Assembly (NCBI RefSeq): GCF_028330985.1
Contig: NZ_JAQMUE010000098.1
Coordinates: 1-64,000, forward strand
Reading direction: 5' to 3'
Length of the DNA stretch: 64,000 nucleotides
DNA from: Roseofilum reptotaenium CS-1145
GTDB taxonomy: Bacteria; Cyanobacteriota; Cyanobacteriia; Cyanobacteriales; Desertifilaceae
Made by a program: the position numbers and the translations under genes. This document shows, one piece after another, positions 17,659 to 61,950 of this stretch (the stretch's first letter is position 1; every line of letters begins with the position of its first letter). Below the pieces are notes generated by a model. It did not search any database and was not told the DNA's origin. It saw only the letters and a list, made by a program, of their open reading frames with translations.

Positions 17659-19053
17659 ATGAAAATTTTGCGATCAAAGAAATTAATGGGTTTATGTTGC
17701 TCAGTTTTACTTCTAGCAAGTTGTGGCGCTTCAGTAGACACACCCTCCACACAGAGCGGCCAAAAGCCATCCCCATCCGATGGAACCATCACCATCTGGT
17801 GGACTAGAAGTTTCTACATTCAAGAAGATGAAGCCCTTGAAGCCGCGATCGCGCAATGGGAAAAGGAAACTGGGCACACAGCAGAACTGTTTTTTTTCGA
17901 TGAAGACGATCTTCCCGGCAAAATTGCCAATGCCCTCAAAAGGAACGCTCCCCCCGAAATTGTTTTTTCGCCCCGTATTGCTTTTACCAGTGTCCCGCTG
18001 TGGGCTTGGGAAGGCAAACTCGCTGATGTATCCTCTGTCGTGGAACCCCTCAAAGAACAATATAGTTCTTCTGCCATCGAAGCCGTTTCCCTTTATAACC
18101 AGAAGTCCCAAAAGCGCTCTATCTATGCGACTCCTATTGGACAACGAACGATACACATTCATTATTGGCGAGACTTACTGGCAGAAGCGGGTTTAAACGA
18201 AGCTGATATTCCTCAAGAATGGGAGGCTTTTTGGAATTTTTGGAAACAGGCACAAGATAACTTACGAGCGAAAGGCTATACAGACATTTATTGCTGCGGT
18301 TTTCCCATGTCAGCCGAGGCCACGGATACACATTTTATATTTGAGCAGATTTTAGAGGCTTACGATATTCCCATTGTGGATGAAGAGGGCAATCTGATCG
18401 ACAATCAGGAAATTCGCCAGCAGGTTGCTAGAGCCATGGAATTTTTCGCCAGTTTTTATCGCGAGGGCTATGTGTCTCCAGATGCAGACAATTGGACGAA
18501 TGGGAGTAACAATAAAGCATTCCTTAACCAAAATGTCTTAATGACGATTAATCCTACGTTATCTATCCCAAACGCTCAAAAAGAAGATGAAGAAATTTAT
18601 CAAGAGCGCATTGTAACGATTGGATTTCCCCAAGAACCCGATGGGGAAATCCCGCGCTATGTCGTTACACTCAAGCAGGTGGCCCTATTTGAATCTTCTC
18701 CCAATCCAGAAATTGCCAAAGATTTTCTCTCTTACTTCATCGAGCCAGAACATCTCGAGCCGTATCTGGAAAACTCGTTGGGTCGTTACTTTCCAGTTAT
18801 GCCAGAACTCGCCGCCAAGTCATTTTGGAACAATCCAGCCGATCCTCATGTTTTTGCAGCCACCCAACAGTTCCAAAGAGGAGAAACGATTCCCTCTGCC
18901 CAATCTCTCAACCCAGCTTATAGTACCTTACAGTCTGAAAATATTTGGGGCCTGGCGATCGAGGGAATGGTTGCAGAGGGGAAATCTGGGGAGGAAGCCA
19001 CCGAAGAGGCATTTTCCAGAATTCGCGAAATTTTTAGAGCATGGGAAAGATAG
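17659..19053 (+). CDS. Solute-binding lipoprotein (ABC sugar-type, family 1) without permease genes
   Basis: 464 residues. Lipoprotein signal with cysteine at 22 (LLLASC). The mature part has the SBP_bac_1 fold start (ITIWWTRSFYIQEDEALEAA ... AQWEKETGHTAELFFFDEDD) and is most like carbohydrate-binding MalE-type proteins. No ABC permease or ATPase gene lies next to it. Instead its stop codon is followed at once by a sensor histidine kinase in the same direction (the first possible start codon abuts the TAG; the likelier ATG is 18 bp on). This suggests that it senses ligand for that kinase rather than, or besides, transport. The ligand is unknown. Confidence 0.85.
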   Translation: MKILRSKKLMGLCCSVLLLASCGASVDTPSTQSGQKPSPSDGTITIWWTRSFYIQEDEALEAAIAQWEKETGHTAELFFFDEDDLPGKIANALKRNAPPEIVFSPRIAFTSVPLWAWEGKLADVSSVVEPLKEQYSSSAIEAVSLYNQKSQKRSIYATPIGQRTIHIHYWRDLLAEAGLNEADIPQEWEAFWNFWKQAQDNLRAKGYTDIYCCGFPMSAEATDTHFIFEQILEAYDIPIVDEEGNLIDNQEIRQQVARAMEFFASFYREGYVSPDADNWTNGSNNKAFLNQNVLMTINPTLSIPNAQKEDEEIYQERIVTIGFPQEPDGEIPRYVVTLKQVALFESSPNPEIAKDFLSYFIEPEHLEPYLENSLGRYFPVMPELAAKSFWNNPADPHVFAATQQFQRGETIPSAQSLNPAYSTLQSENIWGLAIEGMVAEGKSGEEATEEAFSRIREIFRAWER

Positions 19054-19071
19054 TTGAGACAATTACCCGTG

Positions 19072-21150
19072 ATGAAGATGCTCAAAGTCTGGAAAAAAAG
19101 CCTCCTCGTCCAAATTGTCGGTTCTTTCTCGACTCTCTCGTTTGCGATCGTTGCTTTAACCAGCTATTTGGCTTTCGTGCAAGCAAGAAAATCTCTGAAG
19201 GAATCAATTTTCGATCGCCTGACAGCGGTGGCTTCTCTCAAAGAAGGAGAATTAAATCATTGGTTGCTCGATCGCCGCAATAAACTCCTCGCCTTGAATC
19301 AATTGCCAGAAGTCGGGATGCAGGCTCGAATATTACTGTCCGCGCAGCGATCGACCCCAGAATATCAAGCAGCTTTGGTTCAGTTGCAGACCGCTCTAAG
19401 TGGGTTTATTCGCGATCGCTCCGATTTTCACGAAATATTTCTACTCACTCGGGGCGGACGAGTTCTCGTTTCCACTGAACCGGAGAAAATTGGCGACTAC
19501 GAACCCCTCCCCCGAAGCAGCGAGGCGATCGAAGGAAGGGAGAACAGTTTTACCGTCAACTTTTATCGTCTTCAAGATAGCGATCGCCCTGCTTTGACCA
19601 TCACGACCCCTATATTAGACGGAACGGGCAAACGGATGGGACTGCTTGCCGTGCATCTCAACCTCGAGCGTCTCGATCAGATTGTGCGAGATAATCGTGG
19701 TTTGGGTAAGACAGGGGAAACCTATACAATCGTTGATTTTGGCAACGGTTTTGTCCATCACTATGCCTTTATTTCCTCTGAAGGCTTCGGTTCAAACGAG
19801 TTTCCTGATGGGATAGAGAGTGAGGGAATCGTGGCAGCAATGGAGGGCAACGACAATCGCGGTCTCTATCGCAACTATCGCAATATTCCTGTCATCGGTG
19901 CTTATCGTTGGTTGGAGCGGCATGACGCGGGTTTACTCGTGGAAATGGAGCAATCAGAAGCCTTCGCCCCTGCTCGTCGCCTTGCTTATCAGATTATTTT
20001 TGCCGGTTTGAGTCTATCTGGAATTTTAGCGATCGCAATGGTGTTGGTCGGTCGCCAGATCGTCAAGCCGATTTTAGCGATCGCCCAAGCCGCAAGATCC
20101 CTGGAGAGCCAGGTTAAAATCGGAGAGTTTAGCAATCTGCAACCTGCACCCATTTTAACCGAAAATGAAATTGGGTTTCTGGCAAAAACCTTCAACAAAA
20201 TGAGTTTTCAATTGCAATATTCTTACGAGAAATTGCAAGAATACAGCCACAATTTAGAGTCTAAAGTTTCGTCAAGAACTCAAGAATTGAATTATAAAAA
20301 CAAGCATTTACAAGAGACTTTAAATCAACTCGAACGCACTCAAATTCAACTCATTCAAAACGAAAAAATGGCGAGCTTGGGTCAAATGGTGGCAGGAATT
20401 GCTCACGAAATCAATAATCCAGTTAGTTTTATTGCCGGCAATCTCCAGCATTTGCAAGAATACGCAACCTCTTTACTTCATTTGATCGATCTCTATGAAA
20501 CCGAATATCCTGAAGATACGGCGGCGATCGCTGATGAAAAAGAAGAAATCGATCTCGATTTTGTCCAAAAAGACTTACCCAAAATGTTGAATTCCATGAA
20601 ACTGGGTACGACTCGCATTCGGGAGATTGTCATCAGCTTGCGTAATTTTTCTCGCTTGGATGAAGCGGATTGTAAAGCAGTGGATCTCCATGAAGGACTT
20701 GATAGTACGCTCTTAATTTTACAGAATCGTATCAAAGTCGCACCCAATCGCCCAGAAATTAAAATAGTTAAAGAATATGCCTCTCTCCCCCTGATTGAAT
20801 GTTACCCCAGTCAACTCAATCAAGTTTTTCTAAACCTTATCAGTAATGCAATTGATGTTTTAGAACCGGGCGCGATCGCTGGGGAAATCGAAGAGCCAAC
20901 CATTCGCATCCGCACCCGGTTAGAGGAACAAAACGCGATGATCGCGATCGCCGATAACGGCCCCGGAATTCCTGAAGAAATCCGTCATAAAATATTCGAT
21001 CCATTTTTCACGACAAAGCAAATTGGCAAAGGAACGGGATTAGGGTTATCGATTAGTTATTCCATTGTCGTTGAGCGCCATGGTGGCGATCTAACTTGTA
21101 GATCTTTTCCCGGTCAAGGTACTGAATTTATCACCTCTATTCCCATTTAA
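19072..21150 (+). CDS. Sensor histidine kinase with periplasmic Cache-like domain
   Basis: 692 residues from ATG 19072; TTG 19054 would abut the upstream stop. Layout: TM helix ~13-35, a periplasmic dCache-like domain to ~285 (including LTITTPILDGTGKRMGLLAV), TM ~297-317, HAMP, a coiled coil, HisKA with phospho-acceptor His445 in [10 protein letters not shown]-box NLISNAIDVL, and G boxes DNGPGIPEE and GKGTGLGLS. All catalytic motifs are intact. No response regulator is adjacent, so its output partner is elsewhere. It is preceded directly by a solute-binding lipoprotein. The catalytic half is closely similar to the kinase at 59734-61950. Confidence 0.92.
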   Translation: MKMLKVWKKSLLVQIVGSFSTLSFAIVALTSYLAFVQARKSLKESIFDRLTAVASLKEGELNHWLLDRRNKLLALNQLPEVGMQARILLSAQRSTPEYQAALVQLQTALSGFIRDRSDFHEIFLLTRGGRVLVSTEPEKIGDYEPLPRSSEAIEGRENSFTVNFYRLQDSDRPALTITTPILDGTGKRMGLLAVHLNLERLDQIVRDNRGLGKTGETYTIVDFGNGFVHHYAFISSEGFGSNEFPDGIESEGIVAAMEGNDNRGLYRNYRNIPVIGAYRWLERHDAGLLVEMEQSEAFAPARRLAYQIIFAGLSLSGILAIAMVLVGRQIVKPILAIAQAARSLESQVKIGEFSNLQPAPILTENEIGFLAKTFNKMSFQLQYSYEKLQEYSHNLESKVSSRTQELNYKNKHLQETLNQLERTQIQLIQNEKMASLGQMVAGIAHEINNPVSFIAGNLQHLQEYATSLLHLIDLYETEYPEDTAAIADEKEEIDLDFVQKDLPKMLNSMKLGTTRIREIVISLRNFSRLDEADCKAVDLHEGLDSTLLILQNRIKVAPNRPEIKIVKEYASLPLIECYPSQLNQVFLNLISNAIDVLEPGAIAGEIEEPTIRIRTRLEEQNAMIAIADNGPGIPEEIRHKIFDPFFTTKQIGKGTGLGLSISYSIVVERHGGDLTCRSFPGQGTEFITSIPI

Positions 21151-58521: not shown

Positions 58522-59643
58522 ATGAAACGTCGAAACCTACTCCATAAAATCGCCTTAGGCGCAGCCAGCACCTATAGTATCACCGCCTGTCAATCCCCGA
58601 ACCCTCCTCAACCTAACCCCGAACCCACTCCCAGCCAACCCCTCATTCGCTGGCGCATGGCCACCAGTTGGCCCAAATCCCTAGATATCATCTTTGGAGC
58701 CGCAGAAATCCTTTGTCGGCGCGTCGAACAAATGACTGAAGGTCGCTTCACGATTACCCCCTATCCTGCCAATGAAATTATTTCTCCCCTACAAATTCTC
58801 GATGGTGTAATTGCAGGAACCGTAGAATGTGGCCATAGCAATCTTCTCTTTTCCTTTGAGCGAAATCCGGCTCTGGGACTCCTTTCGGGTGTCCCTTTTG
58901 GCATGAACACTCAACAGCATAATGCCTGGTTTTATTATGGGGGAGGACTAGAGGCCATGGAAAAAATTTATCAAGATTTTGGCGTGAATGTGTTTCCCGC
59001 TGGTAACACTGGACTACAAATGGGCGGATGGTTTAGTCGCCAGATTAATAGCATCAATGACCTCAAAGGCCTAAAAATGCGAATTCCTGGACTGGGCGGT
59101 AAGATACTGGAACGACTCGGCTGTGAAGTCCAAGTTTTGCCTGGGGATCAAATTTTTCCAGCATTGGAACAAGGTACAATAGATGCTGCTGAGTGGATTG
59201 GGCCCTATGATGATGAAAAGCTTGGACTCAACCGCATTGCTCCTTATTATTACTATCCGGGTTGGTGGGAACCTTCATCTGTACTGATTGCCTTAGTTAA
59301 TCGAAGGCAATGGGATCAGCTTCCCAAAACATACCAAGAAATTTTTCGTTCTGCTGCTCTTGAAGCTTATTTTTTAACCATCAGTCGATATGATGCCGCT
59401 AATGGAGAAGCCTTAGAGCGAATGATGTTAAGTGGTACCGAGTTACGTCCCTACAGCCAAGACATTTTACAAAATGCCTACCAAGTGGCCTTAGAACTCT
59501 ATGAAGAGTATGCCTCAGAAAGTGATGACTTTGCTAGAATCTATCAACAAGGGAAACAGTTTCAATCTCGTATTTATAAATGGTATCCAATTAATGACCT
59601 AACTTATTCTGATTTTATCTCTGGAATTTCCCCAATCAATTAA
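58522..59643 (+). CDS. TRAP-type solute-binding lipoprotein (DctP/TakP-like) without permease genes
   Basis: 373 residues. A signal with Arg-Arg at 3-4 and a lipobox ending in Cys23 (SITAC). The mature domain opens WRMATSWPKSLDIIFGAAE and continues GRFTITPYPANEIISPLQIL, with the carboxylate-binding Arg likely in KMRIPGLGG, typical of TRAP proteins for 2-oxo acids or related carboxylates. DctQ/DctM transmembrane genes are absent from the window. A histidine-kinase gene follows 90 bp downstream in the same direction, so this is a second solute-binding-protein/kinase neighbour pair. Confidence 0.88.
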   Translation: MKRRNLLHKIALGAASTYSITACQSPNPPQPNPEPTPSQPLIRWRMATSWPKSLDIIFGAAEILCRRVEQMTEGRFTITPYPANEIISPLQILDGVIAGTVECGHSNLLFSFERNPALGLLSGVPFGMNTQQHNAWFYYGGGLEAMEKIYQDFGVNVFPAGNTGLQMGGWFSRQINSINDLKGLKMRIPGLGGKILERLGCEVQVLPGDQIFPALEQGTIDAAEWIGPYDDEKLGLNRIAPYYYYPGWWEPSSVLIALVNRRQWDQLPKTYQEIFRSAALEAYFLTISRYDAANGEALERMMLSGTELRPYSQDILQNAYQVALELYEEYASESDDFARIYQQGKQFQSRIYKWYPINDLTYSDFISGISPIN

Positions 59644-59733
59644 CTATCTATACCTTCTTATTTTTAGGAAAATTCTGAATGAGCAGTATAAAATAGATAC
59701 AATCAGGTACATTGCCATCCCCTTCAATCGATC

Positions 59734-61950
59734 ATGTTTAATCCAATTGTCCGATCTATCAATTTATCAATATCCAATATCCTGAAGATTACAAAAAACA
59801 GGAAAATTACCATCAAAAACAAGCTGAACTTAGCTTTTGGTAGTTTGATTGGAGTTACCTTTTTAATTATGGGAGTTAATTATTGGAGTAGTGTCCAAGC
59901 CACTTTGAATATTAATCGGACTGAAGAATTGCGAATGCCGATCGCTCTATCGTCTTCAGAAGCACAAAGCAATTTGCTAAAAATGCTCTCTAATGTACGC
60001 GGTTATTTGGTAACGGGAGATGCTGTATTTCGACAACAATATCAGGAATCTCGACATGCTTTTGAAGAAAATCTTCATGAAATGGAGCAGCTATTTCAAC
60101 AATGGAACGTGCCGATACAACTAGAACAGTTGAAAAACTTGCGCCGATTTTATGAAATTTGGTCAGAGTTGCCTCCCTACCTCTTTGACTTAAAAGATGA
60201 TCGCCTGAAGAGTGAGCCAGGATTTCGTCTTTGGGAACAAGAAGGAGAACTATTAGCGATTCATATTTTAGCCAATATTGATAAAATAAGCCAAGAGCAA
60301 AATCCGAGATTGTTATCAGATCTTGAGTTATTCCAAGAGACGATTAATCTTAAAAGTTTATTTTCCTTATTGGTAGCTGATATGAGGAATTACATTAGTA
60401 CACGAGAGGATAAATATCGCTTCGATTATACAGCACATTATCGGAAGAGTAAAGCTAGCTTAGAAAATATTCAATCTAGGTTGTATTCCTTGACCCAAAG
60501 TCAGCAAGAAGCTTTGAATGATATTATTGAAGATTTTGCTGAAATAGAAATTATTATAGAAAATACTGTTGAAATTATCGAGAGCGATCGCTATCGAGAA
60601 GATCTGCATATATATCAAAGCAAAGCTGAACCGATTGCCAAAGAAATGCTGATTATATTAAATTATATTGTCGAGACGCAAAAACAACAATTTAGATCCG
60701 AATTAACATCCGGTGTCTCCAGATTGAATTCGGCTCAACTACAAACCTTAATAGGTTCCCTATTGATCCTAATTTTAGGGTGTATTATGACTCTAGTATT
60801 GCAACGTAAAATCTCCGATCCGATCCAAAGATTAACAGAAGTGACAAATTCAGTAATATCGGGAAATCTTGAAGTCAAATCTTCAGTGGAGTCTGGGGAC
60901 GAAATTGGGATTTTAGCCCAGACATTTAATGAGATGACGGATTCTCTTAAGCTTTCTCTAGACACATTAGAAATGTATAACAAAAACCTGGAATCACTGG
61001 TAGCAGAAAGAACTGAAGAACTCCACGTAAAAAACAAAGAGCTGCAATTAACTTTGCATAACTTGAAACAAACTCAGTCCCATCTCATTCAAGCAGAAAA
61101 AATGTCAAGCCTGGGACAAATGGTGGCTGGAATTGCCCATGAAATTAATAATCCCATTAGTTTTATTCAATGCAACCTTTCTCCCTTGACTACCTATTGT
61201 CAAGATTTACTCGATTTAGTGCAATCTTATCAAGAATTGTATCCAGATGATATGAATATGGCTAAAAAGATAGAGGAGATTGATTTAGAATACATTGAGG
61301 AAGATTTGCCGAAGCTAGTTGAATCTATGGATATGGGGGCTAATCGGATTTATAACATTGTCTTATCTTTGAAGAATTTTTCGAGAAGCGATCAAGCAAA
61401 CTTAAAAGAAGCGGATATTCATGAAGGTGTTGAAAGCACATTGTTGATTTTACAACATCGCTTAAAATCAGCTAGCAATCAAGGAAGAACAATTCAGATC
61501 AACAAAGAATATGGTGATTTACCTTTGGTGGAATGTTACCCAGGGGAACTCAATCAAGTCTTTATGAATATTTTAGCTAATGGCATAGATATTTTAGAGT
61601 CTATGGTGGAAGGAGACAATAGGAATGCAGACTTGGAGGATGGAGTCTTAACAATTCATACTGAATATCAGGCAGAAACGGACAGGATATCCATTCAAAT
61701 TCAGGATAATGGCCCAGGTATAGATGCCGAAATTACAAATAAAATTTTCGATCCTTTTTTCACAACTAAACCTGTGGGTGAAGGAACTGGTTTGGGACTA
61801 TCGATTAGTTATAAAATCATTACAGAGCATCATCAGGGGATGTTAAAATGTTATTCAAAACCGGGTGAAGGCGCTAGGTTTGAAATTGAAATTCCAGCTC
61901 ATCAAAGCTGGACATCATTACCCCATGAAGATCAGAGATTGAGTGCATGA
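59734..61950 (+). CDS. Sensor histidine kinase with CHASE3-like periplasmic domain
   Basis: 738 residues. TM helix ~34-52 ([19 protein letters not shown]), a four-helix-bundle periplasmic domain resembling CHASE3 ([19 protein letters not shown] ... [15 protein letters not shown]), TM ~337-357, HAMP, coiled coil, HisKA with His469 ([12 protein letters not shown]), an N-box that reads [10 protein letters not shown], and G boxes DNGPGIDAE and GEGTGLGLS. It is a full kinase without receiver domain; the response regulator is elsewhere. A TATAAA box at 59687-59692 may give it its own promoter. Its kinase half is closely like that of the kinase at 19072. Confidence 0.92.

Follow-up and report, generated by a model that had tools for sequence, protein, structure and literature searches.

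In the 64,000-nucleotide stretch of cyanobacterial DNA analysed here (the window), a gene coding for a TakP/DctP-type solute-binding protein (SBP) directly precedes the gene of a two-transmembrane (TM) histidine kinase, and as judged from comparative sequence analysis the two products probably act together as one two-part receptor. DctP/TakP-kind binding proteins normally feed a transporter. A co-receptor role is suggested here because the DctP gene stands directly before the kinase gene at the loci examined and because the pair persists where the transporter was not found. According to the mechanism that we propose, a Tat-exported, lipid-anchored TakP-like SBP would bind a cation and a small 2-oxo acid in the periplasm. 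In either or both of its states the SBP would dock on the kinase, at the all-helical periplasmic domain, and this docking would alter kinase autophosphorylation. Docking, ligand, direction of the signal and output are in this scheme what we infer.

Organisation of the gene pair and its surroundings

The genes and domains of this pair, and of a second SBP/kinase pair in the window, are as follows.

58522..59643, + strand: TakP/DctP-type solute-binding lipoprotein, 373 aa, presumed co-receptor (Pfam PF03480, E 2.4e-54)
58522..58590, + strand: putative twin-arginine signal with lipobox (MKRR...ITAC, aa 1-23; sequence and motif scan)
59644..59733, + strand: 90-bp intergenic gap
59734..61950, + strand: two-TM histidine kinase, 738 aa (Pfam HAMP, HisKA, HATPase_c, partial CHASE3)
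59881..60744, + strand: periplasmic sensor, about aa 50-337, predicted all-helical (TM estimate, AlphaFold2, genome searches)
60799..60951, + strand: HAMP domain, aa 356-406 (Pfam PF00672)
61111..61194, + strand: HisKA segment with AHEINNP, aa 460-487 (Pfam PF00512)
61546..61902, + strand: HATPase_c, aa 605-723 (Pfam PF02518)
17659..19053, + strand: SBP_bac_8 lipoprotein of the other window pair (PF13416, E 5e-26)
19054..21150, + strand: dCache histidine kinase of the other window pair (PF02743, HAMP, HisKA, HATPase_c)

With profile positions 3-284 of 286 covered at E 2.4e-54, the SBP encoded at 58522 (hereafter the window SBP) is a near full-length match to family PF03480. The CHASE3 match (PF05227) of the kinase encoded at 59734 (hereafter the window kinase) is partial, comprising aa 69-145 (E 2e-10; 41 bits at a cut-off of 28) and only positions 10-84 of the 138 in the profile. 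No terminator-like site was found on the + strand in 59644..59733, the 90-bp gap across which SBP and kinase may be co-transcribed. Upstream of the SBP gene lies holA on the opposite strand, and a UvrD-type helicase gene follows 49 bp downstream of the kinase on the same strand; a response-regulator gene does not adjoin the kinase. As a promoter scan yielded 14 sites with 10.9 expected, no inference was drawn from promoter sites.

The genome to which the window belongs (G000, 113 contigs) holds three DctPs according to a Pfam family search and one strong DctM match, which is located on contig C105 and adjoined by a DctQ-sized gene. There is neither DctQM near the window SBP nor a DctP beside the DctM on C105. 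The earlier description of the locus as a DctP/TakP-like lipoprotein without DctQM, followed by a kinase, is thus confirmed by the open reading frames, the Pfam matches and the contig on which DctM resides.

In the second pair, the kinase start at 19054 abuts the stop of the SBP_bac_8 gene. The catalytic motifs that the earlier note had reported as common to both kinases (giving the start of the second as 19072) are present in both translations, and the close likeness that it had claimed is real in that the two catalytic halves are 55% identical. However, this likeness is not special: among the catalytic-half matches of the window kinase, with their 52 full-length members, the kinase at 19054 is the eighth row, self included, and since 55% identity is usual among these 52 members a special relation between the two kinases was rejected.

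Linkage of the sensor half to DctP

A search profile restricted to the periplasmic half of the window kinase (A1) gave at least five matches at E <= 1e-20, in at least four of 386 phylum genomes, and at least 19 matches in at least 17 of 388 order genomes, both counts being lower bounds with up to five candidates scored per genome. In 59 relatives there were ten strong matches, the next best having an E value of 2e-11, and a named genome collection contributed seven loci. The union amounts to 21 cyanobacterial loci found, from eight coded families and one record without a code, and as one of them (G515) starts at a contig end, 20 of the 21 have upstream DNA. Each of the 20 testable loci has a DctP immediately upstream in the same orientation, be it intact or damaged (truncated in G250, broken in G623), and the loss of the SBP with retention of the sensor was not seen in any of them. 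This near-exclusive linkage contrasts with the distribution of DctP as such, which at E <= 1e-30 is found in 84 of the 386 phylum genomes.

A search of the 59 relatives with the window SBP itself resulted in 46 hits in 36 genomes; 43 DctP loci were read among the relatives, leaving out G009 C2 and the partial G002 C95. All six genomes of the genus that were searched contain the window pair, in the same genomic context. In more distant forms the sensor half is 43% identical in G006, where two tandem DctPs come before the kinase, 38% identical in G013, a member of another family with one DctP, and 38-39% identical in the 908-aa kinase that follows a second DctP in G000 (C74) and G001 (C163). For the 33 DctPs outside such pairs, BLASTP, which here covers window-type kinases only, gave no match to the sensor or the catalytic half of the window kinase up to three genes away. 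A chance adjacency of SBP and kinase is rejected by these linkage counts.

Three further observations were made at these loci. In G527 (C48, L207) both tandem DctPs are intact and the adjoining sensor-kinase gene is decayed. Proteins of about 600-650 aa with a response-regulator-like start directly follow DctP-linked kinases at five loci (L201, L202, L203, L204 and L205) and are a possible output. The cyanobacterial cassette also occurs in a record titled Candidatus Gracilibacteria (L167 / L206), a title that is probably wrong.

Origin of the linked DctP and its tandem copies

In a tree of 50 DctPs, a single branch with support 100/99 splits 15 kinase-linked from 33 unlinked proteins. A second tree with Azospirillum and Allomeiothermus as outgroups places 24 linked rows, tandem copies included, against 8, with a clade support of 100/99. 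In the proposed reading the kinase-linked DctP arose once from a TRAP-type DctP. Another DctP of G000, on contig C100, groups with the unlinked type.

Two tandem DctPs occur at 10 of the 20 testable loci, and at some of these they are incompletely kept, one copy being a fragment in G250 and at a Zarconia contig edge and broken in Phormidesmis and G623. In seven tandem loci the copies nearer to the kinase cluster together (100/100), as do, with weak support, the far copies (82/76), and as near and far copies thus group separately the duplication seems to be old. The window SBP groups with the far-type copies, with a support of 86/85 that is not firm. A motif scan for a lipobox in the far copies found none in G006, G426, G568, G580 and G574, and a lipobox is present in the far copies of G527 and Phormidesmis.

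Ligand site

Among solved structures the best relative of the window SBP is 7ug8, a 'Ketoacid-binding protein' (E 1.7e-112), and the fourth is TakP/SmoM (2hzk, E 3.8e-98). In TakP, Arg177 and Tyr100 contact the carboxylate of pyruvate, and the cation is contacted by Gln156, Glu214, Glu240 and the carbonyl of Trp215, as described for that structure (PMC1839085). By alignment, the equivalent residues of the window SBP are R187, F110 (for TakP Tyr100), Q166, E224, E250 and W225, such that five of the six contact residues are kept and Tyr100, which provides a carboxylate hydrogen bond, is exchanged for Phe. TakP positions Q156, R177, E214 and E240 are kept in 15/15 linked as well as 33/33 unlinked DctPs. 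Position 109, corresponding to Tyr99 in the pocket wall of TakP, is Tyr in all 33 unlinked DctPs and L, A or T in the subclade of the window SBP, the far copy of G006 and the copy of G623. Although only 5 of the 15 linked SBPs compared first keep this Tyr, its loss was rejected as a mark of all kinase-linked SBPs, since in a larger sequence set it is confined to that subclade and the two related copies. TakP of Rhodobacter sphaeroides therefore resembles the window SBP in its cation and carboxylate residues but differs in belonging to a TRAP transporter and in having Y99/Y100 in place of L109/F110. Given the conserved TakP contact residues, our best guess for the ligand is a small 2-oxo acid, presumably bound in a changed pocket.

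Sensing versus transport

DctM was sought at E <= 1e-20 in 72 genomes, the newer pair-bearing order genomes being left out, and was found in 45 of them. It is present in seven of the nine pair-bearing genomes covered, so that the SBP could also serve this transporter. A rival explanation consequently holds that the window SBP mainly serves the unlinked DctQM on C105, that the kinase only controls uptake genes, and that the adjacency reflects co-regulation and involves no complex. In line with this, the ligand-site residues are common to linked and unlinked DctPs, and cyanobacterial DctP and DctQM genes are often apart, with a DctM within four genes of only 5 of the 33 unlinked DctPs in the stretches read. 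However, G000 keeps another DctP of the unlinked type (C100), and the DctP linkage is to one sensor domain combined with two kinds of catalytic half. Moreover, DctM was not detected in the pair-bearing draft genomes G003 (98% complete) and G250 (99%). In G003 the sole DctP hit is the kinase-linked one, and in G250 there is one listed DctP hit, likewise kinase-linked, in addition to the fragment of a tandem copy. The pair can thus persist without detected TRAP membrane subunits. The same searches also revealed an unlinked DctP without a detected DctM in G007, G026 and G038. Taken together, we consider a role mainly in transport, with the kinase controlling only uptake genes, to be unlikely.

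Structure of the sensor half

The AlphaFold2 model of the sensor is all-helical (mean pLDDT 80.9, pTM 0.62). Foldseek retrieved McpS with malate or succinate as the best match (E 2.5e-4 to 5e-4), followed among others by PilJ (E 6e-3) and TorS (E 9e-3). In terms of VIA Z scores, the model reaches 16.8 against 3va9, a short histidine-kinase sensor, and 16.2 against McpS, and TorS scores 13.1-14.0 with and without TorT. As unrelated human TTYH chains reach 13.3-15.7 and thus match these latter values, the likeness to TorS is weak evidence. McpS binds its ligand itself, and TorS binds the SBP TorT. An all-helical fold hence suits direct ligand binding as well as SBP docking, and the mechanism is not settled by the fold.

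Accordingly, the helical domain of the kinase might bind a ligand directly in the manner of McpS, with the SBP being a separate partner in the same pathway, and the rank of McpS as best Foldseek match with a Z score of 16.2 is in favour of this. We nevertheless regard such a mechanism as quite improbable, since it leaves unexplained the upstream DctP in 20/20 testable loci and the occurrence of tandem DctPs.

Exchange of catalytic halves between SBP-sensor modules

From the two pairs in the window the earlier note had derived a modular design in which kinases of one subfamily recruit different SBPs, and had proposed a genome-wide count of SBP genes upstream of such kinases. A search of G000 with the catalytic half gave 60 hits at E <= 1e-10, 52 of which are full length, and 7 of these 52 have an SBP directly upstream, a strong enrichment by binomial figures that are rough in that they assume about 5000 genes. 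Among the 18 members of the subfamily with a roughly assigned two-TM periplasmic segment, the same proportion is 7/18. The SBPs upstream of the seven kinases belong to DctP, SBP_bac_8, NMT1_2, Phosphonate-bd (twice), SBP_bac_3 and PBP_like_2. In turn, 12 of the 24 members over cut-off of four Pfam SBP families in G000 (a count leaving out NMT1_2 and PBP_like_2) lie directly upstream of a membrane receptor, namely a histidine kinase in 11 cases and a SpoIIE-type phosphatase receptor in one; the remaining 12 do not precede a receptor, and at least three of them are located by ABC transporter genes (C44, C105, C106). The modular design is therefore supported in so far as there is a strong enrichment of SBP genes in front of receptors, but the other 45 of the 52 kinases lack an SBP at this position.

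Recruitment by a single kinase subfamily is not what the data suggest. At least five SBP-linked kinases of G000 (C74, C79, C99, C101, C41; also C103) fall outside the catalytic subfamily, their identity over some 150 aa not exceeding 32%, as compared to 46-56% for members. For the sensor halves, a pairwise comparison was made of 13 receptors paired with DctP, SBP_bac_8, Phosphonate-bd, SBP_bac_3 or NMT1_2, taken from a run of 18 proteins from which the two C44 kinases flanking one SBP and three kinases without an SBP were left out of the count. At E < 1e-10, 5 of the 78 pairs match, each of them joining two members of the same SBP class (5/17 within, 0/61 between); between classes, matches are weak and reach 4e-4. 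The sensors were delimited by a crude TM rule which cut C41 and C19 short, so that these may be missed relatives. The SBPs of sensor-matched pairs are near relatives as well (C98, C99 and C101; C79 and C81; C98 and C74), with the DctP of C98 being closer to the unpaired C100 than to C74. Each of three SBP classes includes one receptor with a window-type catalytic half (46-56%) and another with a different half, which carries a receiver domain where scanned. A tree of 20 DctP-linked sensors implies two to three switches of catalytic type over the bootstrap range, although the starred branches force only one. As SBP class and sensor half remain constant and the catalytic half varies, SBP and sensor move as a unit while catalytic halves are swapped; SBP-sensor modules are thus joined to different catalytic halves.

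That the cassette is just a laterally moved block of hitch-hiking genes devoid of functional coupling would fit its patchy spread (at least 4/386 phylum and at least 17/388 order genomes), but is hardly credible in view of the like SBP-sensor match in two SBP classes besides DctP and of tandem copies kept as two subclades in seven loci.

Because TakP is a helix-swapped dimer, a hetero-pair of SBPs may also be envisaged. Two tandem TakP-like SBPs of ancient divergence, of which one is often a lipoprotein and the other often lacks a lipobox, might sit together on one helical sensor and weigh two keto acids, or two ligand levels, against each other. Single-copy forms like that of the window would be later reductions, and SBP-sensor units would serve as plug-in inputs swapped between catalytic halves across cyanobacteria. 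This scenario is tentative, and on balance we doubt it.

Several other arrangements in G000 were noted in passing. Several tandem proteins of some 1800 aa resemble Ser/Thr kinases at their start and carry the same histidine-kinase catalytic half at their end (C71, C12, C25, C107; L060, L067, L070, L050, L049). At C103:78000-93000 (L079), genes for SBP_bac_1/8, SBP_bac_3 and hybrid sensors form an array that is interspersed with kinase fragments and transposase-like ORFs. A PBP_like_2 lipoprotein on C44 (L056 5679-10779) is flanked by two sensor kinases with 58% identical sensor halves. On C68 (L188 3137-5665), a Phosphonate-bd SBP precedes a Tll0287-like, SpoIIE-phosphatase receptor by 3 bp, an SBP coupling without a kinase.

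Comparison with known systems

In the open-licence literature we recognised no earlier account of a cyanobacterial TakP-type SBP paired with this sensor. The predicted two-part receptor of the window differs from the sensor unit of Bacillus subtilis, in which the DctP-type protein DctB is combined with the PAS/CitA-type kinase DctS and with DctA, by its predicted all-helical sensor and its unlinked transporter. The stacked helical-bundle sensor of TorS, the partner of TorT, which is not known to be DctP-type, gives a VIA Z of 13.1-14.0 at a sequence identity of 6-9% with the window sensor, and unrelated helical chains score equally. The Phosphonate-bd pairs of G000 presumably resemble AioX.

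SBP-coupled kinases as such are already known, with SBPs of at least 13 families being reported to bind receptors (PMC9602780). DctB, as a co-receptor, forms a C4-dicarboxylate sensor unit with DctS and DctA (PMC6978683), the periplasmic SBP TorT controls TorS through its sensor (PMC8534201), and for AioX, among the arsenic-sensing periplasmic binding proteins, the SBP is described as the first part of a signalling system (PMC5908839). In Bordetella, signalling requires BctC, which is a secondary-transporter SBP and contacts the sensor kinase (PMC5812351). The BctC/BctDE system (TTT) is similar to the window pair in that a secondary-transporter-type SBP is coupled to a kinase, as predicted for the window; however, BctC is TctC-type and encoded in a transporter operon, whereas the window SBP is DctP/TakP-type and has no adjoining transporter.

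Implications

As 12 of the 24 SBPs counted in G000 look like receptor parts, their annotation as transport genes would mislead. Few cyanobacterial sensor kinases have a known ligand, and if SBP and sensor half travel together, the SBP, being soluble and easily screened, would offer a handle on the signal of the kinase.
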